From a virus, in IMG/VR virus record IMGVR_UViG_3300028920_000055, positions 26,052-90,051 of that record: a DNA stretch of 64,000 bases; one strand, 5' to 3'. The position numbers were made by a program, and so were the translations under genes. The notes under the pieces were generated by a model. The model made no database searches. It saw nothing but the letters and a program-made list of their open reading frames with translations, and was not told the DNA's origin. This document shows positions 22,415 to 64,000 of the stretch, one piece after another; positions within the stretch are counted from its first letter, which is position 1; every line of letters starts with the position of its first letter.

Positions 22415-22415
22415 T

Positions 22416-24791: not shown

Positions 24792-25513
24792 ATCTTGAAG
24801 AAATTACAACAGCCGTTATTACCTATAACAGACCACTTTGTGTAGGCAATTTTTTAAAATCCGCTCGCAAGCATCTTGACGATATGCCAGTGTTGGTAAT
24901 AGATGGTTCGAGCGAGATAGGTGATGGATGTATTACTTTCGATTCCGCAATATTTACACATAATAGACCATTATCAATCAATCTCAATAACGCTATCTTG
25001 TTCTCTCGAACAAGATATGTAATGATTTGCAATGACGATATTTATTTCAAAGATGGAATCATGCCTTTTTTGTTTAAGTTAAACGGGGCAGGATTGCATA
25101 TCTTGAGCAATTGGAGCTGTTTTGTAATAGATAAAGCAATTATTCCTACAGTTGGTTGGTTTGATCCAAGATTAGAGTCAGCAGGATACGATGGGAAAGA
25201 TTACGGTTCCAGAATGAAAATCTGTGGAATCGAAATGAAAAGGTATGATTGTAGAGAGTTTATACATCACGATCAGTATACAAGAAGGAAACATTATAAA
25301 TCAGTAAGATGGAATTATCGTCAATCTTTTGATTTTTTTAGAAAAAAGTGGGATGTAGTAAATAGTAAAACTACTGTGAATAGTAAAACTACTGTGAATT
25401 TAAAAAAGTTAAGTGGTGCTAAGTTGAAGCAGATGAAGAAAATGGATGATCCTGATTGGTATCCTTATTATACAGAATTATACAGGAAAGGTATCTGGTC
25501 AGATGAAATCTAA
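24788..25513 (+). CDS. GT2-like glycosyltransferase
   Basis: The 241-residue protein starts with a GT-A-like segment (AVITYNRPLCVGNFLKS) and carries ICNDDIYF (about 80-87) as the DxD-like motif. It is more diverged than the other GT2 proteins here: the first loop is shortened (VIDGSSEIGDG). Residues about 191-204 contain an exact six-codon tandem duplication (25361-25396) in a basic linker. ATGA coupling joins it to the methyltransferase before it. Confidence 0.75.
   Translation: MNLEEITTAVITYNRPLCVGNFLKSARKHLDDMPVLVIDGSSEIGDGCITFDSAIFTHNRPLSINLNNAILFSRTRYVMICNDDIYFKDGIMPFLFKLNGAGLHILSNWSCFVIDKAIIPTVGWFDPRLESAGYDGKDYGSRMKICGIEMKRYDCREFIHHDQYTRRKHYKSVRWNYRQSFDFFRKKWDVVNSKTTVNSKTTVNLKKLSGAKLKQMKKMDDPDWYPYYTELYRKGIWSDEI
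25361..25396 (+). repeat. 18-bp perfect tandem duplication inside a GT2 gene
   Basis: AATAGTAAAACTACTGTG occurs twice head to tail, in frame, giving NSKTTVNSKTTV. The exact identity suggests a recent slippage event. Confidence 0.9.
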
Positions 25514-26306
25514 TGCAGAACTTACAGTTGCACTGGCCTTGTTCAAGGGAAAAGAGATTTCCTGGCTTGGTATGGAATCTTTATGTAATCAAGTTACAAT
25601 TCCTGCTTCTTGGGAATTGCTGATAGCAGAAGAACAGTGCTCTGGAAGAACAGGAGCTGATGAAATCTTAAAATATCACAAGCGATTAAGGGAAATTGGT
25701 TGTGAAAGAATTGAATATTATCCCCTTACGAAAACTATGGGATTGGTAAATAAGTTTGTATTTTTAGCCAGTAACGCTGCAGAGACTTCAAAAATGTTTT
25801 TACTTTGGGCACAGGATGATTATTATGTGTCTACAAGGATAAGAGAAACTTATGATGCTATGATGTCTTATCCTTATCATATGTATACAAGAGATAACAA
25901 TTTCGATTATAGTTTTGCAACAGGAAATTTAACTTACAGACATTATAACAATAGGATTTTCAGACCTTACATTGAATTGGCTTATCGTCCACACGCTTTA
26001 AAAAGAATTATTTTAACAGGCGATGCAAGGCGGAGAAGTCATTCAGATATGACTCTGTTTAAATTGTATCAAGAAGTCGTCAAGAAGAAAAAGATTACAA
26101 GATTTATAAACACATTGCCCAATAATTCTGTTTATACTACAGGATTTAATTATTATAACAAGCCAAGAATTAAAAAATTGAAGCCAAGTAAAATGTTTCA
26201 ATATACAGAAGCTATATTGGAAGATGTTGTACCTGTAGATATAGCTATGAGACTTAGAGAATTAAAAAAGGTGTATGATGAAAGAACGCAAAAATATCAA
26301 CACTGA
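25503..26306 (+). CDS. probable GT-A fold glycosyltransferase
   Basis: The 267-residue protein begins with LTVALALFKGKEISWLGMES and has LLWAQDDYYVS (about 99-109), which suits the nucleotide-sugar metal site of a GT2-like enzyme. Overall similarity to the other GT2 proteins is weak, so this is a lower-confidence family call. I start at 25503, overlapping the previous stop by 11 bases; the frame is open to 25446. The next gene overlaps its end by 32 bases. Confidence 0.65.
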   Translation: MKSNAELTVALALFKGKEISWLGMESLCNQVTIPASWELLIAEEQCSGRTGADEILKYHKRLREIGCERIEYYPLTKTMGLVNKFVFLASNAAETSKMFLLWAQDDYYVSTRIRETYDAMMSYPYHMYTRDNNFDYSFATGNLTYRHYNNRIFRPYIELAYRPHALKRIILTGDARRRSHSDMTLFKLYQEVVKKKKITRFINTLPNNSVYTTGFNYYNKPRIKKLKPSKMFQYTEAILEDVVPVDIAMRLRELKKVYDERTQKYQH

Positions 26307-26943
26307 AACTTATTGGGACGGAAAGTATTCCAGAAATTATTGGAGTAATCCCAATAATTTGGTAAAAGGTGCACACAAGCCTCTTTATGAAAAAGTTGTA
26401 GACATAATATTCGAGGTGCGTCATGATTATATTGTGGACTTGGGGGCCGGAATTGGTCCAGTCCCATTTTTACTATCAAAACGGGGTTTTGATTTTAATA
26501 AAAGAATATACATATGCGTGGATCAGTCAACCGTTGGACTTGATAGGGCTAAAAAATTCAGTCCCTCAGTGAAAGTATTGCCCGCCAAAGTTGATGAGCC
26601 TATTACTCAGCTTGAGAAAAGCAAAGCTGATCTTGTAATATGTTGCGAAGTGCTTGAACATTTAACCAATCCAATAAATGCTTTAAAAAATGCTTATGAA
26701 CTTGTGAGCGATACAGGATTGGTTGTAGTTTCTGTTCCTCACGGAATAAGCAAGCATCAAGAACACGTACACTGGAGCATAAGGCAGGATTTGTTGGAGC
26801 GTTTTCATGAAGCGGTTGGGCTCAATGTTTATGGGGTTACAATCGCAGATCGCTGGCGAGTTGTAAAAAGCAGAAGAATGTGGAGGAAGAAAAATGTCGA
26901 GCATCCAACAGTTCAGAAAGCCGATCTTTGTATTTCAGACTAA
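26275..26943 (+). CDS. SAM-dependent methyltransferase (class I)
   Basis: The 222-residue protein has YIVDLGAGIGPVPFLL (about 51-66), motif I of class I methyltransferases, and the later ADLVICCEVLEHL (about 117-129) and GLVVVSVPHG typical of the methyltransf_11/23 group, often acting on small molecules or sugars. ATGATG follows AAAAGGTGT. It overlaps the aminotransferase gene by 50 bases, so the two are made together. Confidence 0.83.
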   Translation: MMKERKNINTETYWDGKYSRNYWSNPNNLVKGAHKPLYEKVVDIIFEVRHDYIVDLGAGIGPVPFLLSKRGFDFNKRIYICVDQSTVGLDRAKKFSPSVKVLPAKVDEPITQLEKSKADLVICCEVLEHLTNPINALKNAYELVSDTGLVVVSVPHGISKHQEHVHWSIRQDLLERFHEAVGLNVYGVTIADRWRVVKSRRMWRKKNVEHPTVQKADLCISD

Positions 26944-28084
26944 GATCGAAAAAGATAAAGTATTGGCTACAATATCTGATTCAATTGATAAAGGTTGGAT
27001 TGGACTCGGTAAGGTAACTGAAGCGTTCGAGCGAGAATTTGCTGAATATGTTGGAGCAAAGTATGCGGTTGGTTTGAATAGTGCCACAGCTGGACTCCAT
27101 CTTGCTCTTATTTTAGCCGGAGTAAAAAAACACCAGCAGGTTATAACTACACCAATGACTTTTGTTTCAACCAATGCTGCTATTCTTTATGTAGACGCGA
27201 ATCCCTTTTTTGTAGATGTTGGTGAATATTTACATATAAAAATCGATGATATACTTAATCCCGAAATAAGTCCAAACAGTGCTAAAGCTATAATGTTAGT
27301 ACATTTCGGCGGGATTCCTATTGAAAAGAAAAAAATTATACAGCTTCAGAATAATTGTCCCCATACAGCTATTATACAAGATTGCGCTCATGCTACAGGG
27401 GCGAAATTTGAAGATGGATCGATGGTAGGAAGTTTTGGAGATTATAACATCTTTTCGTTCCATGCTGTAAAAAATTTACCATCACCTGATGGCGGAATGT
27501 TGGTAACTAACGATGCATCTATTGCCGCAGAAGCAAAAAAGTTGAGGTGGATGGGTATCGATAAAGATACGGCTTCAAGAACGCACCATCTACACAACGT
27601 TGGATATAGCTGGTATTATAATGTTGGGAAGCTCGGATATAAATATCACATGAACGATATAACTGCTGCATTTGGATTAGCTGGACTCGATACAATCAAT
27701 AGAGATAATGACCGGCGCGGAGAAATTCGACAGGCTTATTATGACAAAATAGACAAAAATTATGCCAAGTTGGTAATGGCAGATACTAATGTAAAGTCTG
27801 CTAATCATATGGCTACATTAATACTAAGACAAGGTATTGATCGAAATACTCTTATCCAACGATTGAAAGATAATTGGAATATTCATCCTGGAGTACATTA
27901 TACTCCAAATAATTATTTTGAGCCGTTTTCTAATTATCCAGGCGGAACTATAATGGCTTGGAACGTATATAAACAGATTGTGACTTTGCCTTGTCATCTC
28001 GAAATGACCGATGAAGATGTGGCAAGAGTTATAACGGCGGTAAACTCTGAGATAGATAGAATATTAGAAAAATCACTACAATGA
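26894..28084 (+). CDS. DegT/DnrJ/EryC1-type NDP-sugar aminotransferase
   Basis: The 396-residue PLP enzyme has the family hallmarks: GLGKVTEAFEREFAEYVGAKY with GLNSATAGLHLAL (about 57), TTPMTFVSTNAAI (about 86), QDCAHATGA (about 167) and the Schiff-base Lys in FSFHAVKNLPSPDGGML (about 187-200). These enzymes transfer an amino group to a keto-sugar nucleotide (ArnB, PglE, PseC, DesI types). No NDP-sugar dehydratase is seen in the window, so the keto-sugar would come from the host or from outside the window. A GNAT acetyltransferase follows shortly, consistent with making an N-acetylamino sugar. Confidence 0.9.
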   Translation: MSSIQQFRKPIFVFQTKIEKDKVLATISDSIDKGWIGLGKVTEAFEREFAEYVGAKYAVGLNSATAGLHLALILAGVKKHQQVITTPMTFVSTNAAILYVDANPFFVDVGEYLHIKIDDILNPEISPNSAKAIMLVHFGGIPIEKKKIIQLQNNCPHTAIIQDCAHATGAKFEDGSMVGSFGDYNIFSFHAVKNLPSPDGGMLVTNDASIAAEAKKLRWMGIDKDTASRTHHLHNVGYSWYYNVGKLGYKYHMNDITAAFGLAGLDTINRDNDRRGEIRQAYYDKIDKNYAKLVMADTNVKSANHMATLILRQGIDRNTLIQRLKDNWNIHPGVHYTPNNYFEPFSNYPGGTIMAWNVYKQIVTLPCHLEMTDEDVARVITAVNSEIDRILEKSLQ

Positions 28085-28094
28085 AACCAATCAT

Positions 28095-28115
28095 ATTTGC
28101 TCTCTAAGAGCAAAT
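28095..28115 (+). promoter_or_regulatory. hairpin after the aminotransferase gene
   Basis: ATTTGCTCT / AGAGCAAAT forms a 9-bp stem with a 3-base loop just after the stop. No T-run follows, so it may be a processing or stabilising hairpin rather than a full terminator. The upstream arm is part of CCAATCATATTTGCT (28087-28101), which recurs at 60672-60686. Confidence 0.4.
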
Positions 28116-28150
28116 TACCTTAAATTCATAGTAGGATACAGGAGGAAAAT

Positions 28151-28438
28151 ATGTCTACAATAAGAGGATTTTCGTTGGTGGAGCCGCCGAAGGCGGAGAG
28201 CTTCATAAAATATGTACACCACGGCATTAATATGTGGGTACGTAATGCCTTGAAAGGAAAGCATCGGTTGGTGTGTTGTTGCTATCATTGTGATAAATTT
28301 CATCCAGGCAAGGAGAACAATTGTCCAATAGCTCAAGCTCTTTATGAGTTTGATGTGGATAATAGTGTAACAACTCCTGTTTGGGAGTGCGAAGGTTTCG
28401 AATTTACCGATACGCCTGATGTGGAGGAAACAAAATGA
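28151..28438 (+). CDS. small Cys/His-rich protein
   Basis: The 95-residue protein has a metal-site-like cluster CCCYHC followed by KFHPGKENNCPIAQALYEF (about 44-67), a pattern reminiscent of zinc- or iron-sulfur-binding small phage proteins. It has a strong ACAGGAGGAAAAT site. It is ATGA-coupled to the acetyltransferase, which suggests a joint role, but the function is unknown. Confidence 0.7.
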   Translation: MSTIRGFSLVEPPKAESFIKYVHHGINMWVRNALKGKHRLVCCCYHCDKFHPGKENNCPIAQALYEFDVDNSVTTPVWECEGFEFTDTPDVEETK

Positions 28439-28962
28439 GTAATTGTAAATACGACATCGTTCTGGTTCCTGTAAACAAAGATGTAGCTGGAGATTCTCAG
28501 TTTATTTACAACGTCAGGAACCATCCGGCCATCCGGAAAAATCTCATCAACGAAAGTGAAATTCCAATCTCGAAACACAATCAGTATTGGAGTAAACTCA
28601 TTCTCTCCAATGACGTTGTGCTCTATAAAATCGAAATGATGGATCCGATTACTCATCAATTCATCTCGGTTGGATATTGTGATACTAAAGTAATCGGTGA
28701 TGAGATGGAATTCGGTTGGAAGATTTTACCGGATTATCAAGGTCTTGGACTTGGCCGGAAAGCCGTTGAAGCTCTGCTCAACGCCAATGAAGGCTATATT
28801 CAGATCAAAGGCTTAACACCATCTTTGACAGTATTCGATGATAATTTTCCAGCCATTAAGTTATATCAATCTTTTGGTTTTGAAACAGTAGATCAAAAGA
28901 AATTGAAGAGACTTGATGGTACAATTCGTGTCCTTTTGAAGATGAAACTCACCTCTAATTAG
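28435..28962 (+). CDS. GNAT family N-acetyltransferase
   Basis: The 175-residue protein has the acetyl-CoA-binding motif A (LPDYQGLGLGRKAVEAL, about 98-114, matching Q-x-x-G-x-G/A) and motif B DNFPAIKLYQSFGFE (about 140). Length and order match GNAT enzymes of the RimJ/PseH/WecD type. Beside a DegT aminotransferase, acetylation of an amino sugar nucleotide is the most economical hypothesis; protein acetylation is the alternative. Confidence 0.83.
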   Translation: MSNCKYDIVLVPVNKDVAGDSQFIYNVRNHPAIRKNLINESEIPISKHNQYWSKLILSNDVVLYKIEMMDPITHQFISVGYCDTKVIGDEMEFGWKILPDYQGLGLGRKAVEALLNANEGYIQIKGLTPSLTVFDDNFPAIKLYQSFGFETVDQKKLKRLDGTIRVLLKMKLTSN

Positions 28963-51226: not shown

Positions 51227-52740
51227 CAAAGACCAAGTACGATGATTTAAGGATGGAGCGATCTTTTCTTAGGGCTATGTTATCCGATGATAAAGTGACC
51301 AAAGAAACCAGCGAGGACACAACTTTTGGGTATAGAGCTTTCAATGACAAAGTTAATCAGAACATTTATAAAGCAATAGTGCGACATCACCGGAAATATA
51401 GTGCATTGCCTACAGCAGATGTACTTAAAAGAATTGTTATGAGGTATGTGGAGAAATCTTCTCTGTATAGTCGTGGACAACAAGCCGAAAAATATGGATT
51501 AATCATAGAAAAATTATTATCAAGAGAATCAACCAATAAGGAATTGGCCAACTTGCCCGAAATAAGAAACCAATTATTAACTTACGCGAAAGGGCGAGAT
51601 TTAAGAATGGCTATAATGAAAAGTGCCGATATGTTAGATGATGGAGATATAGACGGGGCATCGAATGTATTTTACAATTTTAAAAGCGATATGATGAGTG
51701 CTGCTGATTTATCGGATGAAGGGGACTACATATCGGATTGGACAGAGAGATGGAAACTTGTAAAGAAAAAAGAAAAGCATCCGGAATTGTTCAAGGCAAT
51801 ACCTACAGGGATTTATGGTTGGAATCCTTACGATCCATTTAAAGACAGTAACACTATTGATTTCGATGTATTTCTCGATGGCGGTCATTACGATGGAGAA
51901 TTAGAGATCGTGGTAGGGGATAGTGGAGGTGGTAAAAGCAATACATTATTAGAGTTTGCTCATAATGCCGCAATAGCGGGCAAGAATGTAATGTTATTCA
52001 CAATAGAGATGAGTCGATGGAAGATGCAAACCCGCCTTGACAGTCGCATTACAGGCATCCCTTTTCGAAAATTTCGTACTGCTACATTGACAGAAAAGGA
52101 TTGGGAGAGATGGGAAAGAAAAATGAAGGCTTGGAAGGAAAAGGTTGGAAAGGGATCGATCTATGTGGTCGGATTTCCTCAGCAGTGTACGGTAGCAACC
52201 ATAGAGGCCAAAATTAAAGAAAGGCAACAACAAAGCGGAAACAAAGTTGATCTCGTTGTGGTTGATTATCTTAATGATATAAAACCTAATGGAAGATATG
52301 AAACAGATAAGGATTGGAAGGCACAAGGAGAAATTTCTTGGGATTTAAAGCAAATGGCGGGTTTATTTAAGATACCTGTAGTCACCGCCAATCAAGGAAA
52401 GTCAAGCTCGATATTGTCCAAGTTCAAAGTCAGTGAAAGCGGAGTGCCCAAATTTCGGAGAATGATGTGGAATGATGCCGCTTTTAGCCCATTGCCCTCT
52501 CATCACTCTACAACAATAATTGGTTTGTTGTTAAGTAAAAAAGTTGATAATGGTATATGGGACATTCTTAATTCTCAAGTTATCAAGCATCGAGACGGAG
52601 AGACTACACTTGGCGTAGTAAGTGTACCTGATCTGTCAAGATGCCGGATATGTACCACTTATGCTTACGCCAAAGCAAAAGAGAGACTTGAAGAGGGCAG
52701 TGTAGAAAACTTTGAGGGCTTGACCAATGATGGAAAATAA
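51223..52740 (+). CDS. DnaB-like replicative helicase
   Basis: The 505-residue protein has an N-terminal helical domain (about 1-120, starting LRMERSFLRAML) and a RecA-like core: Walker A GDSGGGKSN (about 231-239), VMLFTIEMSRWKMQTRLDSR (DnaB motif H1a-like, about 256), Walker B KVDLVVVDYLNDI (about 341) and VVTANQGKS (H3/H4 region, about 385). It should unwind DNA at the fork as a hexamer on the lagging strand with the primase encoded nearby. The region between the two domains (about 155-230) is longer than usual. Confidence 0.9.
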   Translation: MTKTKYDDLRMERSFLRAMLSDDKVTKETSEDTTFGYRAFNDKVNQNIYKAIVRHHRKYSALPTADVLKRIVMRYVEKSSLYSRGQQAEKYGLIIEKLLSRESTNKELANLPEIRNQLLTYAKGRDLRMAIMKSADMLDDGDIDGASNVFYNFKSDMMSAADLSDEGDYISDWTERWKLVKKKEKHPELFKAIPTGIYGWNPYDPFKDSNTIDFDVFLDGGHYDGELEIVVGDSGGGKSNTLLEFAHNAAIAGKNVMLFTIEMSRWKMQTRLDSRITGIPFRKFRTATLTEKDWERWERKMKAWKEKVGKGSIYVVGFPQQCTVATIEAKIKERQQQSGNKVDLVVVDYLNDIKPNGRYETDKDWKAQGEISWDLKQMAGLFKIPVVTANQGKSSSILSKFKVSESGVPKFRRMMWNDAAFSPLPSHHSTTIIGLLLSKKVDNGIWDILNSQVIKHRDGETTLGVVSVPDLSRCRICTTYAYAKAKERLEEGSVENFEGLTNDGK

Positions 52741-53620
52741 AGCAAGCAAGATGAGCAGAATAGCGGGAGCAATATTCGGAGCCGCCATAGGGGATGTGTT
52801 CGGCTCAATGATTTCCAGCATAAATGAATATAACAATACCGAATTGTATGGAGAATGGCCAATAAAACATTTTAAAAGACCACATGGTAAAAATGCCTTT
52901 CTCGTAAAAGGCCAATATAGCTGGCCCTTTCAGGTAATGAAGATGTTCATAAGATCAATTATAGGAGTTGGTGATAATTGGAATTCCGGCTATACCGATT
53001 TGGATGTAGCATCGGCAGTTATGGGTGGATTTTCCATTCGATATGAAAAACACACAAAAGAGGATTCTTTTCTTGGAACCGATTCAACTTATGTTATGTT
53101 GGGATCAAAAATGTTAGATAGTGGAGAGGATATACCAAGTTTTGAATTTTATCACACTGCTATGGATTCCTTTTTGCCTAAAATAATGCTTACATCATTA
53201 ATATTCGCTCCACCTTATATGAATGCCATTAGAATGTTAAAAAGCAAAATTAGTTACATGTTTAATATACCAGAGGGTCGAGATAAAAGAGAATTGTATA
53301 TGATTCCTGATTATATGATTGGGGAATCAGTAATGCATTTGTTCTCTATATCAAGTAAAATCAGTCGAATATTAAGTGATATATCAGAGATAGAGGAAAA
53401 GGCTGAGAATTTTTATGATGCCATGGTAAATTTTACAAGTTCAGGTGTATACTATCATTATGGAAACGATAGTAATTGTTTCGGTTGTATGCTTGGGGCG
53501 AGGTTGGGTTGGAGATTCGGAGTAAATAGCACAGAATTTTTCGCACACCAATTGGAGGAATTCGCAGAAATCGATAGGATGATAGATAACTTGTTAACAT
53601 TTTGGAGGGATCATGTCTAA
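52727..53620 (+). CDS. ADP-ribosylglycohydrolase-like protein, degenerate
   Basis: The 297-residue protein opens with GAIFGAAIGDVFGS (about 14-27), the signature N-terminus of the ADP-ribosylglycohydrolase (DraG/ARH) fold, and ends with HYGNDSNCFGCMLGARLGWRFG-like sequence (about 243-262), which lines up with the family's GGDTDT-x-x-x-x-x-G-A-x-x-G. The second metal-binding Asp appears replaced by Asn and the usual TDDTQM segment reads YSWPFQVM. It may therefore be inactive, bind without hydrolysing, or use a changed substrate. It sits between helicase and primase, overlapping both. Confidence 0.72.
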   Translation: MMENKASKMSRIAGAIFGAAIGDVFGSMISSINEYNNTELYGEWPIKHFKRPHGKNAFLVKGQYSWPFQVMKMFIRSIIGVGDNWNSGYTDLDVASAVMGGFSIRYEKHTKEDSFLGTDSTYVMLGSKMLDSGEDIPSFEFYHTAMDSFLPKIMLTSLIFAPPYMNAIRMLKSKISYMFNIPEGRDKRELYMIPDYMIGESVMHLFSISSKISRILSDISEIEEKAENFYDAMVNFTSSGVYYHYGNDSNCFGCMLGARLGWRFGVNSTEFFAHQLEEFAEIDRMIDNLLTFWRDHV

Positions 53621-54721: not shown

Positions 54722-55495
54722 GTGGCAAATCTCAAGAAGATGACAGTGGCACAGCTTCAAAAGTTGTGCAAAAAGGAAGGCATCGAAGGCTATGAAGACA
54801 TGAAGAAATCCGATCTCATAGCCGTGTTGGAGTCAGTGGATGAGGAAGCAGAAGAGGCTGAAGTGGACGAGGAAGTGGAAGATGAGGATGAGGATTGGGA
54901 AGATGATGAGGATGATGAAGAAGGGGACGATGAAGACGAGGACGATGAGGATGATGATGATTGGGAGGAAGATGAGGATGAAGACGAGGATGAGGAAGAT
55001 GAGGAAGATGAGGATGAGGAAGATGAGGATGAGGATGATGAGGATGAAGAGGTGGTGGAAGAGAAGCCCAAGAAAAAGCCCTCAAAGAAAGCATCCAAGG
55101 CTCGAAAAGAGGGTGGTGAGCGTCTGCGTCCCTTCATCAACGAACAGATCGATCTGAACGCCAAGCTCAAGAAAAAGAATCTGTGGGTCAAGAACGCACA
55201 GTTTCTGTCCCGTGATGAGAAGAAACAGCTTCTCAAGGCCAAGAATCAAAAAGATCCCATCGCCAAAAAGGTGTACAAGCTCCTTGATAAAAAGGTCGCC
55301 GGTTTCCGCTCGAAACAGAAGGAAAAGACCAAAGCCGCCAAGACCACTACCAAGGCAGCTTCACCTTATGCCGATAAGTCTCACATCGAACTGGCCAAGG
55401 AAGTGGTGAAGCGAAAGCTGAAGCCGAAAGCCGAAGCCAAAAAGATGAGTGACTCCAAATTGATCAAGCTGCTTGAATTCGATGATGCGGAATGA
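54722..55495 (+). CDS. SAP-like, Asp/Glu-rich protein
   Basis: The 257-residue protein (GTG start after AACAGGAGGAAAGTACT) has an N-terminal SAP/Rho-N-like helix-extended-loop-helix (MTVAQLQKLCKKEGIEGYED and KSDLIAVLE, about 7-38), an almost pure Asp/Glu stretch (about 40-118), then a Lys/Arg-rich region and a second SAP-like segment at the end (KSHIELAKEVVKRKL and SDSKLIKLLE). SAP motifs bind DNA. The acidic block may mimic DNA or bind basic proteins. Strong SD, single-gene unit and terminator imply high expression. Confidence 0.78.
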   Translation: MANLKKMTVAQLQKLCKKEGIEGYEDMKKSDLIAVLESVDEEAEEAEVDEEVEDEDEDWEDDEDDEEGDDEDEDDEDDDDWEEDEDEDEDEEDEEDEDEEDEDEDDEDEEVVEEKPKKKPSKKASKARKEGGERLRPFINEQIDLNAKLKKKNLWVKNAQFLSRDEKKQLLKAKNQKDPIAKKVYKLLDKKVAGFRSKQKEKTKAAKTTTKAASPYADKSHIELAKEVVKRKLKPKAEAKKMSDSKLIKLLEFDDAE

Positions 55496-55560: not shown

Positions 55561-55579
55561 TAGTTTGCGGAGAAAGACA

Positions 55580-56383
55580 ATGGTACTTATTGATGGAAAT
55601 AATCTTTTGTATAAAGATTATTTCTCCTACAAGGGCGCGGATTACAAACAATTAAAAGATTTTTTCATTAGACATCTTCATTCGCTTGCTTCATCAGGAA
55701 TACACGATCTTGTGGTGATTTGGGATAGTGCTTTCGGATCGTGGCGCAATATTGCTTATCCATCTTACAAAGGCACAAGGACTATGTCTTTGTTCGAATG
55801 TGATAGTGAAGCAAAGAAATTTTACCACTGGAGAATAAAATTAAGACAATTTTTATACACTCGAACATCAATAAGACAAACCCATATAAATCGATTCGAA
55901 GCAGATGATATAATAGCTCTTTATGTTAGAAATAGAATCAAGAAAAAGATTGATGTTAATATAACAATAGTATCCAACGACAAAGACTTCTATCAATTGC
56001 TACATTCTTATCGTCCCACCGTGAATATTCTCCGTGTAGGTAGAAACAAACAACGTGTATTAACTCGTGAAGATTTCGAAGAAGAATACGAAATCAGACC
56101 AGCATTATGGTCTGATGTGAGAGCACTTAGTGGTGATACATCAGATAATATTCCTGGTATTGAAGGAATTGGCCCAGTAAGGGCTGTTGAAATAATAAAA
56201 ACATACGGGCCATTGAAAAAATGGATCAATTCCGTAGCTCCCAATGATAAAATAAAAATCAGCAAGTGGGCATTTAAAGCTCGCCTTAAACGTAAAAAGG
56301 TGATGTTTTATTACAAGCTTGTAGATTTAAAGAGAAATCATAGTGGTCTTAGATTGGAATTGAGTAACAATACTTACAAGTGA
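55580..56383 (+). CDS. 5'-3' exonuclease / flap endonuclease
   Basis: The 267-residue protein has the PIN-like FEN fold: MVLIDGNNLLY at the start (metal Asp5), YPSYKGTR (about 59), FEADDIIALY (about 106), VSNDKDFYQLL (about 131) and the helix-3-turn-helix GDTSDNIPGIEGIGPVRA (about 184-201). It removes RNA primers or flaps in lagging-strand processing. I start at the ATG at 55580, which follows GCGGAGAAAG; an upstream TTG at 55565 is in frame but unlikely. Confidence 0.9.
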   Translation: MVLIDGNNLLYKDYFSYKGADYKQLKDFFIRHLHSLASSGIHDLVVIWDSAFGSWRNIAYPSYKGTRTMSLFECDSEAKKFYHWRIKLRQFLYTRTSIRQTHINRFEADDIIALYVRNRIKKKIDVNITIVSNDKDFYQLLHSYRPTVNILRVGRNKQRVLTREDFEEEYEIRPALWSDVRALSGDTSDNIPGIEGIGPVRAVEIIKTYGPLKKWINSVAPNDKIKISKWAFKARLKRKKVMFYYKLVDLKRNHSGLRLELSNNTYK

Positions 56384-56391
56384 GGCGTATC

Positions 56392-57171
56392 GTGAATTAT
56401 GTAAAAAATAGTTTTAAAATGGGCCCATTTCGCGTAATATCTTACAGCAGAAGAGAAATGGAACATATGACGATTGTTCCAGATGGTTGTCACTCGGATT
56501 ACGTAATACACGGCGACCTTTCTGTCGCAGCAAGTTACGAATTTGCTTCTTATTTGTTTTATAGAGGATTGGCTAAAAAATCTAATAAAATTAACAGTGT
56601 ATTAGAAGTTTTTGGCGGTTCAGGTTGGGAATCTCATCTTATTGGTAGAGTAATAAAACCAGAAAAACATTACGTATTAGAAATGTATGAACAAGGGTGC
56701 AAATCGATTGAAGAGAATTGCAATCCTACAAGTGTTATGCAAGTGGATAGTTATTACTTTTGTAGTATTCTAAAAAAACATTTTGATTTAATTGTAGCAG
56801 ATTTTAACGCATTTACATTTCGTAAAATGGAGCAAGATAGAAACATTAAGGAAGCCGTAAAAGGGATGTTTCGATCATCTAACAAATACGTTAAAATAAG
56901 CGATTCTACATTTTTCGGAATATACAGATTCCCAAAAAATATTACAAGTTACGATTTATATTTAGATGGACACGCCAAAGATTATAAACATTTTTATTCT
57001 TTAATTCAAAAGAAATTTTATAAGTTGTACGGATTTAGTCTCATTAAAGTTATAATTCCAAAAGGTAAAACTGTGGCTTTGTTAATATTTAAAAAAGGGA
57101 AATACAGCAATTTAACATTTAAGTCTGTAAATGAAAAATTTGACATGAAGATTTTGCGAGGTGTATCATGA
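56392..57171 (+). CDS. methyltransferase-fold protein (putative)
   Basis: About 259 residues. LEVFGGSGWESHLIGRVI (about 67-84) looks like a SAM-binding glycine-rich loop, followed by an acidic residue in YVLEMYEQG and a motif IV-like DLIVADFNAF (about 130). The C-terminal half is basic and aromatic. The fold call is reasonable but not firm, and the substrate is unknown. I use GTG 56392 because GAGG lies six bases upstream; a GTG at 56380 overlapping the previous stop is equally possible. It is coupled to the peptidase gene. Confidence 0.6.
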   Translation: MNYVKNSFKMGPFRVISYSRREMEHMTIVPDGCHSDYVIHGDLSVAASYEFASYLFYRGLAKKSNKINSVLEVFGGSGWESHLIGRVIKPEKHYVLEMYEQGCKSIEENCNPTSVMQVDSYYFCSILKKHFDLIVADFNAFTFRKMEQDRNIKEAVKGMFRSSNKYVKISDSTFFGIYRFPKNITSYDLYLDGHAKDYKHFYSLIQKKFYKLYGFSLIKVIIPKGKTVALLIFKKGKYSNLTFKSVNEKFDMKILRGVS

Positions 57172-57611
57172 GACATTGGTTAAAAGCCCGTCAAGCGATT
57201 GCTTACATAAAGCATTTTATTGGATTGCCTTATATCTATGGCGGCGATGATCCAATGGCAGGATTTGATTGTAGCGGTCTTGCCATCGAAATGCTTAAAA
57301 GCGTGGGACTTTTTCCGCTTTATAGCGATATGACAGCGCAAGATTTATTTCATTATCATAGCAATTACATTGTAGATATGACTAAGCCATTTAAACCAGG
57401 CATGTTGATATTTTATGGAACAGCTCTAAACGAAATTTCTCATGTTTCGATTGTGTTAAATAAAAATCAAATTCTTGAGGCGGGTGGCGGAAGAAGTACA
57501 ACGAAAACAATTGGGGATGCAATCCGGCAAAATGCTTATATTATGTGTAGGCCCATTAGTAAAAGAGAAAACGAAATTATTGGAGTAGTTGATCCTTTTA
57601 TTAAGAGGTGA
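57168..57611 (+). CDS. NlpC/P60 family cysteine peptidase
   Basis: The 147-residue protein is a minimal NlpC/P60 domain: YIYGGDDPMAGFDCSGL with catalytic Cys35, HVSIVL with His92 and a third polar residue near 103 in ILEAGGG. These enzymes cut peptide bonds in peptidoglycan stems. It is the only recognised cell-wall hydrolase in the window, so it may be the endolysin, although it lies inside a nucleotide-enzyme operon and lacks a signal or binding domain. An ATGA overlap joins it to the gene before. Confidence 0.85.
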   Translation: MRHWLKARQAIAYIKHFIGLPYIYGGDDPMAGFDCSGLAIEMLKSVGLFPLYSDMTAQDLFHYHSNYIVDMTKPFKPGMLIFYGTALNEISHVSIVLNKNQILEAGGGRSTTKTIGDAIRQNAYIMCRPISKRENEIIGVVDPFIKR

Positions 57612-57615
57612 TAAA

Positions 57616-58767
57616 ATGAATCCGCCACAATTCGTTGTACTCGGATTAGGCATTAATGGCCTATTGACTTGCTTTTATCTTAGAAAAAAGTATCCCACTT
57701 GTAAAATTATCGTAATCAGCAAAGGGCCATATTGTAAGTCATTTCTCGATCATCAATATGGTGTACCAATATATTTATATTGGTCGGTTGCTACACATGA
57801 ATTGTTAAAAGATTTACTCGATTTTCGTACAAGGAGATTGAAGATAGGATTGGTGTCTGGTAATAATGTATCATCAATTAAAAAGTTTCCAGAATTTGTT
57901 ATGGATAGAATGGAGTATCTTAAATCTTATTATTACAAATGTAATTTAACAAATGATGGATATGATCCGAAAACTTACAGAGGAATGTCAGATTTCGGTC
58001 ATAATAATTTTATGGTGTGTTCTTTTAATTATCAACAATTAGTAAATAAATTGTATTCAAGGGCAAATGTGGAAGTAATTTATAATACAACAGATTATTG
58101 CATTGACACTTATGGAAGAAAAATTATAATCGAGGAAGGAGATAACAAGGCATTTTGTATTAAATACGATAAATTATTTAGTACAATTCCATTATATTCA
58201 TTGTTGGTCAATCATTATACTGCCGGAGTTCAAAAATTTTCAAAAGATTCTCAATTGGGAATTATTCAAAATCTATATAGTGAAGTAAAAAAAGTATACA
58301 ATGATGCTAACAAGGCTACAAAAGCAAGTTGTATCGTTGATACAAGCGATGTCGGTTTCCCACAATATCAAGGTGGTGGGAAAACAAAAGATTATGATTA
58401 CATTTATGTTGCGTCGCATCCACACTCAATAACTCCAATAAGGAGAATTTCATTTTCGGAAGATGGTAATTATATGTTCATTGAAATCGTAGGTAGTGTC
58501 ACTAATAGTTCATTTAGCTCTCCAACTCAATGTAGAGGATGGATTACATCTCTTTTTAATAATGAAGTTTCTATCGATGGCAAAATGGTAGATTTTGTAC
58601 ACAAAGATTGTAAAATCGTGTTGCCACATATCGTAGACAATATTATAACCGAAGAAATATTGGAAGCATTTAAATGTTTCGGAATTCATTTGTATGGTAG
58701 ATATTCGAGAATGAATACGAGGGGGTTGATTCATCATACCATAGAGCAACTTGAAAAGGAGCTATAA
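57616..58767 (+). CDS. FAD-dependent oxidoreductase-like protein
   Basis: The 383-residue protein begins with a Rossmann dinucleotide motif GLGINGLLTCFYL (G10-x-G12-x-x-G15) followed by IIVISKG, and has a later KLFSTIPLYSLL (about 192) typical of UDP-galactopyranose mutase and protoporphyrinogen-oxidase-like flavoproteins. The start at 57616 follows AAGAGGTGATAAA. It is TAATG-linked to the HAD nucleotidase. A redox step on a nucleotide, sugar nucleotide or amine is likely; which one cannot be read from sequence. Confidence 0.75.
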   Translation: MNPPQFVVLGLGINGLLTCFYLRKKYPTCKIIVISKGPYCKSFLDHQYGVPIYLYWSVATHELLKDLLDFRTRRLKIGLVSGNNVSSIKKFPEFVMDRMEYLKSYYYKCNLTNDGYDPKTYRGMSDFGHNNFMVCSFNYQQLVNKLYSRANVEVIYNTTDYCIDTYGRKIIIEEGDNKAFCIKYDKLFSTIPLYSLLVNHYTAGVQKFSKDSQLGIIQNLYSEVKKVYNDANKATKASCIVDTSDVGFPQYQGGGKTKDYDYIYVASHPHSITPIRRISFSEDGNYMFIEIVGSVTNSSFSSPTQCRGWITSLFNNEVSIDGKMVDFVHKDCKIVLPHIVDNIITEEILEAFKCFGIHLYGRYSRMNTRGLIHHTIEQLEKEL

Positions 58768-59702
58768 TGATAGAGAAAATGTGGGAAGCACAAGAGGAAC
58801 AACAAAAGCTGTGGGTGGAAGATTATGATAGTCTTTCAGATAAGGAACAGCTTGAGCTTTTACAGGAATATATTTTATCAATTATGACCAATTCGAGTCG
58901 TGTGTTAGATGAAGTAAATTGGAAATCTAATATATTGTCTCGAAAACAAATTAACACCGATAATATTACCGAACACTGTGTAGATATTTTAAAATACGTC
59001 ATTAACACATTGTTGATATTCGGAGTGTCACCGGTAGACTTTACTAAAAAATTCGATGAAAAAACGGATGCGGTTCAAAAGAAATGGGATTGGGAAAGAA
59101 AAAGAGATCGTCTCAGCGATACAGATTCGATCATTACTATTGATATAGATGGTGTAATAGCTAATTTTAGTGAGTCTTTTACCAGTTTTATTGAAAATAA
59201 AACTGGAAAGCCTCTTGTAACTGATAGAAAATACTTTCATTATTATATGAATGTTGAGGGACTTACTGCCACAGAAGAAGAAAGATTGATGGATGAATTT
59301 ATTAGGGATGGTGGTTTTTGCAGACCAAAAATCTATCCAGGCGCAAAAGATTCTATCGATGTATTAAAATCTGTGGGATTTCATATTGTATTCTTAACAG
59401 CAAGGCCATATAATAAATACAGAAGAATTTTTCGTGACACAACTTGGTGGATGGAAAAGCATAAAGTAAATTATGACGCCATTTTGTGGGATAAAGATAA
59501 AGCGGATGCTATTAAAGCATTACATCCTGCTTTCGTTTTATTTCATGTGGAAGATCGAGATAAACATGCTGTGGAAGTTGCAAACAGCGGAGTTGATGTA
59601 TTGTTATTTGATAAACCCTATAATCAAACCGTAATCCACGATAAAGTACAACGGATTACACGATGGAGCGAAGTAATTGAACGAGCATGTTCGGAGGTGT
59701 AA
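58767..59702 (+). CDS. HAD-type 5'(3')-deoxyribonucleotidase-like protein with N-terminal extension
   Basis: The 311-residue protein has an N-terminal helical region (about 1-115, acidic, unrecognised) and a C-terminal HAD domain with ITIDIDGVIANF (about 122-133, nucleophile Asp and acid Asp), FLTARPYN (about 208) and VEDRDKHA (about 260). This combination is typical of the 5'(3')-deoxyribonucleotidase subfamily that dephosphorylates dNMPs. In this operon it may remove a competing nucleotide such as dTMP or dUMP, or recycle one. Lys in the third motif is plausible near 230-240. Confidence 0.8.
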   Translation: MIEKMWEAQEEQQKLWVEDYDSLSDKEQLELLQEYILSIMTNSSRVLDEVNWKSNILSRKQINTDNITEHCVDILKYVINTLLIFGVSPVDFTKKFDEKTDAVQKKWDWERKRDRLSDTDSIITIDIDGVIANFSESFTSFIENKTGKPLVTDRKYFHYYMNVEGLTATEEERLMDEFIRDGGFCRPKIYPGAKDSIDVLKSVGFHIVFLTARPYNKYRRIFRDTTWWMEKHKVNYDAILWDKDKADAIKALHPAFVLFHVEDRDKHAVEVANSGVDVLLFDKPYNQTVIHDKVQRITRWSEVIERACSEV

Positions 59703-59703
59703 G

Positions 59704-60657
59704 ATGAAAGAAATGGAAGTCAAGATGCTTTCTGGAACACAACAGCCGGTAGTTACGGCTATAAAGATTTGGAAAGCATCAAAGGGAGAGGATTTTACTG
59801 ATGTAACTGAAGAAGAATCCAAGGAGTTGTGGCCTCAGTTAGTGTTACAAGATGTACCGGTGCTTGAAAATCTTCATTATCAGTTTCTTTTTCAAAATGT
59901 TCCAGTGTCTTGGCGTGAACAGGCAGTGAGGCATCGCATCGGTGTAAAAGCAGGAGAAAATTATGGTATAGACATTATACCAGATTTTCCAGGATCATCT
60001 TGGTGGAGTCAATCGATGAGGATCAAGAATGTAGGCGGATTTTACCATCGAGGCGATTTTTACATTCCTGAATCGATAAGAGGAAATAAAGAATTACAAG
60101 ACGTGTATACTCACGTTTTGGAATCTATTGGAAATGCTTACACAACTTTGGTGAATTTCGGAATTCCAATGGAAGATGCTCGCAATCTTATCCCTCTTGG
60201 AGCCACACACGATATAAGTTGGGATTTAAGTCATAAAGCAATGCTTTACATTGTAAATAAAAGATCGTGTTGGATACTTCAAGCCGGATTGTGGGTTCCT
60301 ATCATAAAAGAAATGATGTTATCACTTCTTAACTTTTATGGAAGCGAGCAGTTATTGTACGGAATGGGAAAGCCGCCTTGTTACGATCCAAAAGAGGGTA
60401 AGATCGCCGATTGTATTTTCAATTTGGAAAATGAAAGAAGATGGTCTGGGAAAGATAATCTGCCACCATGTCCCATATGGGTATATCTTGCTTGTTACAA
60501 AATAAAATATGGGAACAGCATAGAGATGGCTCACAGATGTTATCCAGAGACTCCACCAGAGGGTTCAGACATAAAAACTTTTGTTAAAGATTTTAAAAGA
60601 CGGTTGAGCCTATATTCAGAAATTTGGGGCGGTGAGATAACTGATATTTTGCTTTAA
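59704..60657 (+). CDS. thyX: ThyX-like flavin-dependent thymidylate synthase, divergent
   Basis: The 317-residue protein has the ThyX core: LHYQFLFQNVPVSWREQAVRHR (two segments, about 57-78, RHR at 76-78) and RNLIPLGATHDISWDLS (about 163-179) matching R-x-x-L-P. The signature RHR-x7-S-x-R is interrupted: about 20 residues separate RHR from SQSMR (102-106). ThyX methylates dUMP using FAD, NADPH and methylene-THF. The insertion may change substrate or chemistry (for example hydroxymethylation). The start at 59704 follows GGAGGTGTAAG. Confidence 0.82.
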   Translation: MKEMEVKMLSGTQQPVVTAIKIWKASKGEDFTDVTEEESKELWPQLVLQDVPVLENLHYQFLFQNVPVSWREQAVRHRIGVKAGENYGIDIIPDFPGSSWWSQSMRIKNVGGFYHRGDFYIPESIRGNKELQDVYTHVLESIGNAYTTLVNFGIPMEDARNLIPLGATHDISWDLSHKAMLYIVNKRSCWILQAGLWVPIIKEMMLSLLNFYGSEQLLYGMGKPPCYDPKEGKIADCIFNLENERRWSGKDNLPPCPIWVYLACYKIKYGNSIEMAHRCYPETPPEGSDIKTFVKDFKRRLSLYSEIWGGEITDILL

Positions 60658-60671
60658 TTAGTACAATAATC

Positions 60672-60686
60672 CCAATCATATTTGCT
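60672..60686 (+). other. intergenic copy of CCAATCATATTTGCT
   Basis: The 65-base gap between ThyX and aminotransferase genes holds a 15-base match to 28087-28101. No hairpin forms here. Significance is uncertain. Confidence 0.3.
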
Positions 60687-60722
60687 TTCTCTCGCATTTG
60701 AAACATGAGTATGGAGGGTATT

Positions 60723-61865
60723 ATGAGTTATTTAATGAATACAATAAAAACCATTCCCGGTTTGGAAATAGAGCATGCCGAAGACAGTTATCTTTATGGT
60801 ACACTTAACGGAGAAGTAATGAAATGGATCGATCTTTTTAACGATAGTGGTGTTTGCTCATTGGGATACGATAATCATATTAAATATCATCTTAAAAGAG
60901 CTTTAACACCTCATATGCCCAATATAGTCAGTTTTAAATTCAGAGAAAATGTAGCCGAAGAATTATGTGACATGACAAAAATGAATAAAGTATTTTTTTG
61001 TAACAGTGGTACAGAAGCGATTGAGTCGGCTATTAAAATAATGAGAAAGGCTTCTACAGATACAAAGAAAAGATATATTTATACATATGCGAATGACTTC
61101 CACGGGAGAACATATGGAGCATTGGCGGCAAGTGATGGGCCATCTTATCATTACGAAGGATTTGGTCCACATTTACAAGGATTTAAACATTTCAAATATC
61201 CTCATCAAATTGATTGGGACGTTTGTTCCGGTATTCTCATGTCTACAGTATTCGGTAATCATGATGTAATGGATCACGGCATAGCGGAACTTAAATATTT
61301 AAGATCAATGTGTGATAGGCATAGAATACCACTTTGTTTGGACGAAATACAATGCGGAGCAGGAAGATGTGGAACGTTTAATGCTTTTGATCGATATGCA
61401 ATTGTACCGGATATTCTTTGTCTTGCAAAAGGAATTGCTTGTGGAAATACGTTGGGTGCTTGTTTAGCAAGAGGCAGATATGCTAACACACTTACTCCAG
61501 GTTCACATTTTTCTACATTTGGTGGCGGAATATATGGGTTGTTAGGAGTATTCGAATATATATCAAAGTGGAGAAATGGTGATTTAAATTATCAAGATAT
61601 TGAAAACAAAGCACATTTGTTCAAAATAAAATTGGAAGTAATAAAAGAAATAGACGAAATAAGGCAAGTGGGATTGATGATCGCTGTAAAAGTAAAAGAT
61701 GATACCGCGAAATTGGTTTCAAGAAAATTGTTAGAAAAGGGAGTATTCTTACCAACATTCAGAAGTGATGTTTTAAAAATGGCTCCGGCATTAACAATAA
61801 AAGCAGAAGAAATAGAGTTGTCAATGAATACTTTACAAGACGTAATGGAGGAGGTGTACTCATGA
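60723..61865 (+). CDS. class III PLP-dependent aminotransferase
   Basis: The 380-residue protein has class III (ornithine/omega-aminotransferase) motifs: FCNSGTEAIESAIKIMRKA (about 95-113), NDFHGRTYGALAASDG (about 125), LDEIQCGAGRCGTF (about 206) and the Schiff-base Lys in LAKGIACGN (about 236). It moves amino groups to or from omega-amino compounds, semialdehydes or keto substrates. I start at 60723 because GGAGGGTATT precedes it; upstream in-frame ATGs at 60705 and 60711 lie before that site. It is coupled to a nucleotide kinase gene. Confidence 0.87.
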   Translation: MSYLMNTIKTIPGLEIEHAEDSYLYGTLNGEVMKWIDLFNDSGVCSLGYDNHIKYHLKRALTPHMPNIVSFKFRENVAEELCDMTKMNKVFFCNSGTEAIESAIKIMRKASTDTKKRYIYTYANDFHGRTYGALAASDGPSYHYEGFGPHLQGFKHFKYPHQIDWDVCSGILMSTVFGNHDVMDHGIAELKYLRSMCDRHRIPLCLDEIQCGAGRCGTFNAFDRYAIVPDILCLAKGIACGNTLGACLARGRYANTLTPGSHFSTFGGGIYGLLGVFEYISKWRNGDLNYQDIENKAHLFKIKLEVIKEIDEIRQVGLMIAVKVKDDTAKLVSRKLLEKGVFLPTFRSDVLKMAPALTIKAEEIELSMNTLQDVMEEVYS

Positions 61866-62509
61866 TTATTGTAATGGAAGGAATCCAGGGAAGTGGTAAA
61901 ACCAGTATTGCAAGAGCATTGGTATCAGAAAGTAAATTTAGATTCAATTTAAAAGGCGTATATTATCATTCATTTGAAAGTAAACCATCATTTTATAATA
62001 ATGGCCTTTGTAGAAAGGCTTTTCAAGACGTAGTTTTTGCTGATTTTCTTAACAAGGTTCCAATTGACGCCGATTTTATCATATTTGATAGATCAATCTT
62101 TTCAGGTTTTGTGTATGATAAATTCGAAAAGGAAAAAACCAAGACAGGCGGAGATAAAACAATACACAAAGATTATTTCCAATTTTGTCTTGAAAAATTT
62201 CACAACGGAGTAAATGGTCCATTAGTAATATTTTATCTCAATACAAAAGTAAATATTGCTCAAAAGAGATTTGATGAAAATAATAGACCGGATAGATTGT
62301 TTCTCGATACTTCTGTACAATATAAAAGATTTTGGAGCTATTATGGCAACCATCTTTCTAATATGGGAATAAAGTTATACATATATCGTAATGATAATAA
62401 TGCAGATTACGTTAATGTTTTGCAAATGGCTCGTTCAGAAATTGTAAGGACAATTAAAATAACGGAAAAGAGGCGACATGACGTACAATCCGAAAGAGAA
62501 AGTGGATGA
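61862..62509 (+). CDS. thymidylate-kinase-like nucleotide kinase
   Basis: The 215-residue P-loop kinase has MEGIQGSGKTSIARAL (about 5-20), FDRSIFSGFVY (DR-S motif, about 74-84) and a lid-like basic stretch (KRFDENNRPDRLF, about 139). Order and length match the dTMP kinase/deoxynucleoside kinase family, which phosphorylates dNMP or nucleosides. It is preceded by GGAGGAGGTG and overlaps the aminotransferase stop. In this operon it could phosphorylate the product of the ThyX-like enzyme or a modified nucleotide. Confidence 0.8.
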   Translation: MIIVMEGIQGSGKTSIARALVSESKFRFNLKGVYYHSFESKPSFYNNGLCRKAFQDVVFADFLNKVPIDADFIIFDRSIFSGFVYDKFEKEKTKTGGDKTIHKDYFQFCLEKFHNGVNGPLVIFYLNTKVNIAQKRFDENNRPDRLFLDTSVQYKRFWSYYGNHLSNMGIKLYIYRNDNNADYVNVLQMARSEIVRTIKITEKRRHDVQSERESG

Positions 62510-64000
62510 ATCAAAGGTATCAAGAGTTGGTTTTGTATTCGATTATCATTCGCCACCTAAAGAAAAGGAACCGAAAGGTTGTGACAGATTTGTAAATTTA
62601 CATAATCATAGTGAATATAGCTTGCTTGATGGAATGTCAAGGATAGAGCGTGGAGTGCTTTCTCTTGACATGGATCGCCTTTATGATACACAAGTAACTC
62701 TTGTAAGAAAGGCGGATTATAATAAGCAACCTGGTGTAGGATTATCAGATCATGGCACATTAGGGGGATTTTTTCGCTTTCATACCGAAGCAGTATCTCA
62801 CAATATAAATCCTATCATTGGTATCGAATTATATGTAATTCCAGATTTAAAAAATTTGTTTAATGTGGATAGTAAGTTTTCTATGCACATGACTATGTTT
62901 GCGAAGTCTTATGATGGATTGCTTAATCTATTTAAGTTGAATAAAATCGCTTGGACAAAGGGATTTTATCGTAAACCAAAGGTTGATTATGAATCTATGA
63001 TCAATTGCAAAGGCGATACAATTCTTCTTTCCGGTTGCGGCGGAGATAGCCCATATTTAAATATTTTGAATAATGAAAATTTATCAAAGCAAGATAAGTG
63101 GGCCAAGATGTGTAAGCTCACAGAGTTTTTTATAATAAATTGGGGAGATGATTTTTATTTTGAAGTCATGCCACACAAATACGATCAACAAGTGATACTT
63201 AATAAGGCATTAATAAAATTGTCAAAGAAGTTTGATGTAAAGTTAGTAGCAACCAACGATACACATTATGCTCGAAAAGAAGATGAGATAACACACGAAG
63301 TGTTGTTGGCGATTCAAGTGCATGATAAATGGGACGATCCTAATAGGTGGACTTTTGGTGTACACGAATTGTATCCGAAAACAAGAAAAGAAATGTTTCG
63401 AGCATTTATGAAATATCATTCCTACATGGGTAAAAATAAAATTAAAGAAGCTCTTGATTCCACTATGGAGATACACGGAAAGGTTTATATCGATATACCA
63501 AAAAGAAAAGAGATGTTGCCTGAACCACTTGTACCAGATGGAATGACTAAGAAAAAATACTTTTTTAAGTTGTTGAGGAAAGGTTGGAGCATTCGTAAAA
63601 TCGAAAGTAAGCAAGCTGTGCTGCTTTCTGAAAAATTAGGAATAAGTCACAAAGAAGCTGTACAAATGTATAAAGATCGTATCAAACACGAATGGAATTT
63701 GATTGATGAATTAGGATTTCCCAATTATTTTCTAATCGTTAGAGAGGTTGTGAATTTTGCTCGAAAAAATAATATAGCTGTAGGGCCTGGAAGAGGATCG
63801 GCGGCGGCATCGGTGATTTGTTATTTGCTTGGTATCACCTCCATTGATCCGCTTGTATATGATCTAATGTTTGAGAGATTTATTTCTAAATATAAAGTTA
63901 CATTGCCAGACATCGATATGGATTTTGAAGATACCAGAAGAGATGAAATAATAGAATGGCTCAAGAAAAGATTCGGAGAGAATAATTTAGTAAACATTGG
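62478..64000 (+). CDS. dnaE: DNA polymerase III alpha subunit (C-family), partial
   Basis: Open to the window edge (507 codons seen). The N-terminal PHP domain shows FVNLHNHSEYSLLDG (about 38-52) and LSDHGTLGGFFRF (about 88); the polymerase core begins with VGPGRGSAAASVICYLLG (about 434) and the catalytic Asp pair in PDIDMDFED (about 477). It is the replicative polymerase of this phage. The start at 62478 overlaps the kinase gene by 32 bases with AGAGG upstream. PHP His/Asp residues look conserved in part, so metal-dependent proofreading is possible but unproven. Confidence 0.92.
   Translation, partial: MTYNPKEKVDESKVSRVGFVFDYHSPPKEKEPKGCDRFVNLHNHSEYSLLDGMSRIERGVLSLDMDRLYDTQVTLVRKADYNKQPGVGLSDHGTLGGFFRFHTEAVSHNINPIIGIELYVIPDLKNLFNVDSKFSMHMTMFAKSYDGLLNLFKLNKIAWTKGFYRKPKVDYESMINCKGDTILLSGCGGDSPYLNILNNENLSKQDKWAKMCKLTEFFIINWGDDFYFEVMPHKYDQQVILNKALIKLSKKFDVKLVATNDTHYARKEDEITHEVLLAIQVHDKWDDPNRWTFGVHELYPKTRKEMFRAFMKYHSYMGKNKIKEALDSTMEIHGKVYIDIPKRKEMLPEPLVPDGMTKKKYFFKLLRKGWSIRKIESKQAVLLSEKLGISHKEAVQMYKDRIKHEWNLIDELGFPNYFLIVREVVNFARKNNIAVGPGRGSAAASVICYLLGITSIDPLVYDLMFERFISKYKVTLPDIDMDFEDTRRDEIIEWLKKRFGENNLVNI

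Follow-up and report, generated by a model that had tools for sequence, protein, structure and literature searches.

Altered bases can protect phage DNA from host nucleases and are a source of DNA-modifying enzyme tools. Phages M6, ViI and phiW-14 are believed to build 5-hydroxymethyldeoxyuridine (5hmdU) into their DNA, where a 5hmdU DNA kinase and transferases then complete the modification (PMC6449724). Bacillus phage SP-15 encodes two ThyX proteins, and 5-(4',5'-dihydroxypentyl)uracil (DHPU) replaces over half of its thymine (PMC5977210); according to the title of a work cited there, DHPU is made at the triphosphate level. The subject of this analysis is a 64,000-base window, bases 26052–90051 of the 90,051-base IMG/VR virus record IMGVR_UViG_3300028920_000055. 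Tightly packed 5' of the gene for DnaE (DNA polymerase III alpha), it contains a cassette for a methyltransferase-like protein (MT), a flavoprotein (FAD), a MazG-NT5C protein (HAD), a variant ThyX (ThyX*), an aminotransferase (AT3) and a kinase-like protein (TMK), all on the + strand, with MT through TMK at window positions 56380–62509. We propose, with a probability of roughly 0.6, that the cassette makes a C5-substituted deoxyuridine nucleotide that is placed in DNA for part or all of thymine, the substituent being probably amine-bearing. In its logic, the nearest precedent appears to be SP-15.

The cassette is located between the primase and DnaE genes. Its gene junctions are short overlaps or have Shine-Dalgarno (SD) spacing, with good SD sequences 5' of FAD (57616), HAD, ThyX* (59704) and TMK; the sole exception is AT3, which follows a gap of 47 bases and whose SD is weak. 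A preliminary description of the sequence had listed these genes as a closely packed same-strand run that ends in the polymerase, and each of them is present among the open reading frames (ORFs). DnaE is represented by its N-terminal part (62478–64000, + strand; PF07733 1.2e-46, PHP 6.7e-23, phrog_405 1e-127), because the window end at 64000 is also the end of the record, which cuts the polymerase gene and anything 3' of it.

The same genes recur together in other viral contigs. ThyX scans of IMG/VR yielded 42 loci and, when the isolate Listeria phage LIS04 was added, 34 distinct ThyX* sequences at <90% identity; the scans require exact seed peptides, so the locus counts are lower bounds. Profiles of each cassette family were searched against every ORF of the ThyX* loci, and FAD, HAD, ThyX*, AT3 and TMK were found to co-occur in 17 further distinct contigs, with DnaE in all but one of them (L035). 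One more case (L047) is truncated, as the contig stops inside AT3. The association of ThyX, aminotransferase and kinase, for which a gene-neighbour search had been suggested in the preliminary description, is therefore a recurrent linkage. The gene order is HAD-ThyX-AT3-TMK in most cassette contigs, HAD-AT3-ThyX-TMK in L004, L028, L029 and L038, and HAD-AT3-TMK-ThyX in L041, and MT is inserted as HAD-MT-ThyX-AT3 in L008, L014 and L017 and as HAD-ThyX-MT-AT3 in L030; the window order is MT-NlpC-FAD-HAD-ThyX-AT3-TMK. Identity to the window proteins is 35–41% for ThyX* (LIS04 excluded), 28–38% for AT3, 25–33% for HAD, 17–27% for TMK and 16–22% for FAD. Because the same genes recur in 17 distinct contigs at ∼16–41% protein identity, their co-occurrence is more than chance. 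Against profiles built without them, the window proteins scored 304 bits (ThyX), 373 (AT3), 244 (HAD), 147 (MT), 45.5 (TMK) and 37.6 (FAD; E 1.3e-12 in a 15-sequence search). The flavoprotein and MT families were found almost only on cassette contigs: in reverse scans, 14 of the 15 FAD loci lay on known ThyX* contigs (the 15th contig stops within or just after HAD), as did all seven MT loci, one of them (L079) ∼20 kb from the cassette, and 14 of 16 HAD loci. A search of open-access literature returned no description of a ThyX-aminotransferase phage cassette. At L003:10997-12117, a nucleotide-sugar epimerase-like gene, read by eye, lies between ThyX* and AT3 and was taken as an insertion.

ThyX* (59704–60657, + strand) has a strong SD at its ATG, within an ORF that opens with TTG at 59677. 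It belongs to the Thy1/ThyX fold (PF02511 1.6e-14, above the cut-off) and scores 38 bits in the ThyX equivalog TIGR02170, below the cut-off of 87.9. No relatives of ThyX* were found across 84,980 bacterial and archaeal species. ThyA (PF00303) was detected in nine control genomes and in neither the window record nor 21 relatives, all of these records being fragments; this is in agreement with the initial assignment of the synthase as ThyX-type and not ThyA-type. To map the active site, 33 ThyX* sequences were aligned on Thermotoga maritima ThyX. Residues Q75, R78, H79, R80, S88, R90, E144, R147 and R174 are kept, and those that bind dUMP and the flavin cofactor (R78, H79, S88, R90, R147 and R174) are present in 32–33 of the 33 sequences. 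N85 is replaced by W and Y91 by I, V or L in all 33, E86 by S in 31 and N169 by His in 32, and H53 is retained in only three. In ThyX, a flavin N5-carbinolamine passes its carbon to dUMP with Tyr91 as the proposed general acid; the S88A, R90A and Y91A mutations strongly slow this carbon transfer step, and consumption of the flavin-carbinolamine by Y91A is >100-fold slower (PMC8316439). As the binding residues are retained and the motif containing Tyr91 is lost, ThyX*, judged from its sequence, looks to bind its substrates as ThyX does and to have changed chemistry. In a phylogenetic tree, ThyX*, LIS04 ThyX and SP-15 gp130 stand apart from canonical ThyX, on branches that are too long for this to be given weight.

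A ThyX, a dTMP-kinase-like protein and a nucleotidase beside a polymerase would make a sensible dTTP module. The cassette could then be a plain nucleotide-supply operon in which ThyX* still makes dTMP but evolves fast, the kinase forms dTDP, the nucleotidase balances pools, AT3 and FAD are passengers, and no altered base is made. Most contigs are without a second thymidylate synthase, so ThyX* may be their sole dTMP source, and a second canonical ThyX was not found in the window record, which is itself incomplete. However, the L030 contig (G012) encodes a second ThyX that scores 109.4 bits, above the TIGR02170 cut-off, and keeps Tyr91 (motif RHRLASYAQESTRY); its gene and one for a dCMP deaminase belong to a single run, separated from the cassette by ∼20 kb (positions 716–2901 of L057, which is G012:C1:69500-75000). 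With a canonical ThyX present in this relative as well, close to a dCMP deaminase, simple dTMP synthesis is probably not the role of ThyX*. In L002, L020 and L048 a further divergent ThyX paralogue adjoins ThyX*. These additional synthases, the uniformly altered active site and the retention of AT3 and FAD in 17 other distinct contigs despite changes of order make a pure supply operon unlikely. ThyX* may nevertheless have a residual role in dTMP supply, as it is the only ThyX seen in most contigs.

PolB of polyoxin biosynthesis, a ThyX-fold UMP/dUMP C5-methylase, resembles ThyX* in serving a pyrimidine-modifying pathway beyond ordinary dTMP synthesis (PMC5003785). However, PolB retains dTMP synthase activity and makes 5-methyl-UMP, whereas ThyX* is without the motif containing Tyr91. 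PolB is an example of a ThyX relative at work in the making of nucleoside antibiotics (PMC5003785), and by analogy the cassette product might be a modified nucleoside or nucleotide aimed at host processes or defence and not at DNA. Such a use is very improbable, since the cassette keeps a constant place among the replication genes, next to primase and DnaE, and since a kinase and a dNTP-clearing nucleotidase suit DNA precursors. ThyX* also occurs in a second context, in which it is adjoined by a radical SAM protein (L002, L012, L020, L021, L033, L044, L045 and L048; SPASM-type in L012), usually with PolA next. Upstream genes in L012 (L012:7309-12786) encode a nucleoside 2-deoxyribosyltransferase, a YfbR-type deoxynucleotidase and a DUF6378 protein, and in SP-15 and LIS04 a deoxyribosyltransferase is likewise found near ThyX. 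Because of this second context and the shared deoxyribosyltransferase, ThyX* may be a common core with differing accessory enzymes.

The FAD protein is an FAD-binding oxidoreductase (57616–58767, + strand), for which the ATG at 57616, with its SD, is a likelier start than the TTG at 57589 where the ORF opens. It has no usable Pfam match, and as a single query it found no relatives among phages or viral contigs; the profile of the other cassette flavoproteins was required because the window protein is too divergent. It contains a GxGxxG motif, and its AlphaFold2 (AF2) model (pLDDT 74) has an amine oxidase/UDP-galactopyranose mutase/protoporphyrinogen oxidase fold. The top Foldseek matches are UDP-galactopyranose mutase (E 8e-14), L-amino-acid oxidase, protoporphyrinogen oxidase and monoamine oxidases, with E-values from 8e-14 to 7e-11 and TM scores of ∼0.5–0.6. 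MT (56380–57171, + strand) is an optional member of the cassette, with homologues mostly between HAD and ThyX. It has no usable Pfam or NCBIfam match; its AF2 model (pLDDT 72) finds S-adenosylmethionine (SAM) methyltransferases as top Foldseek matches (E 3e-8), so the protein is predicted to have a generic class I SAM-dependent methyltransferase fold, from which the substrate is not assignable.

AT3 (60705–61865, + strand) is a class III pyridoxal phosphate (PLP) aminotransferase of acetylornithine/ornithine aminotransferase type (PF00202, Aminotran_3, 2.4e-56), and its family profile aligns over the full length with acetylornithine aminotransferase 2eh6 (2.3e-103). PLP Lys242, Asp213 and Arg135 of the HGRT motif are invariant in 17 sequences. 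In the acetylornithine/ornithine aminotransferase subfamily, the HGRT arginine holds a substrate carboxylate. AT3 shares its fold, PLP lysine and HGRT arginine with the ArgD/AstC acetylornithine-succinylornithine aminotransferases, but it is far below their subfamily cut-offs (232 bits versus 410 and 372 for TIGR00707 and NF002325), half of the AT3 family has Lys where the reference has a C-terminal Arg, and the gene adjoins that of a polymerase and not arginine genes. AT3 matches in isolate phages were left unused, as they look bacterial in phage-labelled records (AstC/ArgD annotations and short unannotated fragments). TMK (61862–62509, + strand) is a P-loop protein similar to (d)NMP/deoxynucleoside kinases (PF02223, Thymidylate_kin, 1.5e-6; 28.5 bits versus a cut-off of 27), with family-invariant G7, G12, K13, D76 and R77 in the P-loop and DR motif. 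HAD (58767–59702, + strand) is a fusion of a MazG-like all-alpha NTP pyrophosphatase with an NT5C-type HAD deoxynucleotidase (PF06941 8.1e-9; 36 bits versus the Pfam cut-off of 24.8). Its HAD catalytic residues (DxD, T/S, K, ED) are conserved as D126, D128, T211, K245 and E262/D263, and the EExxE metal ligands of MazG are kept in 17–18 of 19 family members.

M6, ViI and phiW-14 resemble the cassette in general logic, with a C5-altered deoxyuridine nucleotide, a kinase and nitrogen-bearing side chains. They differ in their use of the ThyA family, which was found in neither the cassette record nor its 21 relatives, and the ThyX*, FAD and AT3 profiles had no match in their genomes (the AT3 search being one without a positive control). 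In the families tested, the cassette enzymes thus appear unlike those of these altered-thymine phages, and the early remark that no obvious orthologs of known hypermodification pathways are present is consistent with these searches of three families. Flavin and PLP enzymes do occur in M6/ViI-type hypermodification pathways. Similarly to those phages, ThyX* might make hydroxymethyl-dUMP that is incorporated, after which the kinase, AT3, FAD and MT would act on DNA; this would fit the score of TMK below the dTMP kinase cut-off (37.6 versus 83.25 bits for TIGR00041). Such a post-replicative route is, in our estimation, unlikely, given that homologues of the three families were not found in M6, ViI and phiW-14 (for AT3, in a search without a positive control) and that no ThyA was found with the cassettes, the resemblance of TMK to soluble (d)NMP/deoxynucleoside kinases and the closeness of AT3 to enzymes of small substrates. 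If the C5-substituted nucleotide is made as proposed here, uncultured phages would have a second solution beside that of M6, ViI and phiW-14: a ThyX-type route that handles amines and probably runs at the nucleotide level.

The observations cover which genes are present, how they are conserved and linked, which folds their products have and which residues are kept or lost. The following pathway is inferred from them by guilt by association and residue patterns, and the inference extends to each chemical step, the timing at the nucleotide level and DNA as the destination, as well as to the altered base, its identity and its amine. ThyX* would bind dUMP and the FAD cofactor as ThyX does and make a C5–carbon bond, stopping short of plain dTMP because Tyr91, Asn85/Glu86 and mostly His53 are lost, and the intermediate would be trapped as a hydroxymethyl or other C5 substituent. 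The flavoprotein and AT3 would work on the amine/aldehyde end of this substituent or of its donor, and we tentatively prefer an order from a 5-hydroxymethyl through a 5-formyl to a 5-aminomethyl type. In a subset of cassettes the SAM enzyme would cap the group. TMK and a host NDP kinase would form the triphosphate, the MazG-NT5C protein would remove competing dTTP/dTMP, and the adjacent phage DnaE would incorporate the product. A more specific version, which we regard as doubtful, is that ThyX* acts as a reductive C5-alkylase: a multi-carbon aldehyde, and not methylene, would be carried on flavin N5 and joined to dUMP. The resulting thymine analogue, with a side chain resembling an amino acid, would be formed at the nucleotide level and then polymerised by the phage DnaE. 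The aldehyde, for example an amino-acid semialdehyde, would come from the ornithine-type AT3 and/or the amine-oxidase-like FAD. If this were true, the same chemistry would also yield the C5-chain uracil of SP-15.

Several observations weigh against the proposed synthesis of a C5-substituted deoxyuridine nucleotide for DNA. The step from hydroxymethyl to formyl is weakened because enzymes with an amine-oxidase fold do not typically oxidise alcohols. In the window HAD the MazG ligands are lost (T41, N42 and R45; TNxxR); a separate dATP/dGTP pyrophosphohydrolase is encoded elsewhere on the window record (L024:3692-4090). Not every ThyX-like protein of phages has Tyr91, as that of phage Suzy, read by eye, appears to have Phe at this position. 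The cassette can also be incomplete: L019 has ThyX*, kinase and DnaE without an aminotransferase, and L094:6920-16671 carries FAD-HAD-SDR-DnaE with a canonical-type ThyX slightly downstream, and ThyX*, AT3 and TMK were not found in this stretch. Finally, part of the synteny may be inheritance, because much of it lies within one broad DnaE phage group. Against shared descent, however, the window and L035 have few other genes common to this group, and the gene order is shuffled.

SP-15 and its relative LIS04 are similar to the cassette in having ThyX-type and not ThyA-type synthases. Among isolate phages, the ThyX of LIS04 matches ThyX* best (27% identity over 85%, 1e-19; 128 bits against a profile built without LIS04) and is the only near-full-length match of a cassette-specific protein. 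A value of 5.7e-86 for LIS04 with the full ThyX* profile was not counted, as that profile contains LIS04. FAD and MT had no match in isolate phages, and HAD had partial matches only. SP-15 gp130 aligned with ThyX* at the detection limit (hhalign Prob 6%, E 0.006). A few genes 3' of gp130, gp134 and gp135 (L027:19925-21106), annotated as hypothetical protein and polynucleotide kinase, gave weak kinase/HAD profile matches (8e-5 and 5e-5) and may hint at how DHPU is made. AT3 had no match in SP-15. SP-15 further differs from the cassettes in its sugar-decoration genes, none of which were seen in cassettes, and in that the flavoprotein profile gives only a 50-residue Rossmann-like match, in the UDP-glucose dehydrogenase of SP-15. 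Should the proposed pathway hold, the question of how the SP-15 uracil is made would become testable through relatives such as the cultured LIS04. The gene adjoining gp130, gp129, encodes an SDR, as in the FAD-HAD-SDR-DnaE arrangement of L094.

Two genes of the interval were additional to those named at the outset. A 5'–3' exonuclease gene (55565–56383, + strand) is the first of the interval, and an NlpC/P60 protein (57168–57611, + strand; PF00877 2.5e-11) is encoded between MT and FAD. A relative of the latter was not detected in other cassettes, and the protein is probably not part of the pathway. Just 5' of the exonuclease, positions 54722–55495 encode a strongly acidic protein that contains a long stretch of Asp/Glu and starts with GTG; its antisense frame is a poly-Ser ORF that is surely no gene. 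Between the DnaB-like helicase and primase genes lies a gene for an ADP-ribosylglycohydrolase-like protein (52727–53620; 24.1 bits, just below the cut-off). The first half of the window contains a glycan-building cluster (20410–28962) with glycosyltransferases (family 1-like and family 2), two SAM methyltransferases, a DegT/DnrJ sugar aminotransferase (1e-81) and a GNAT protein.

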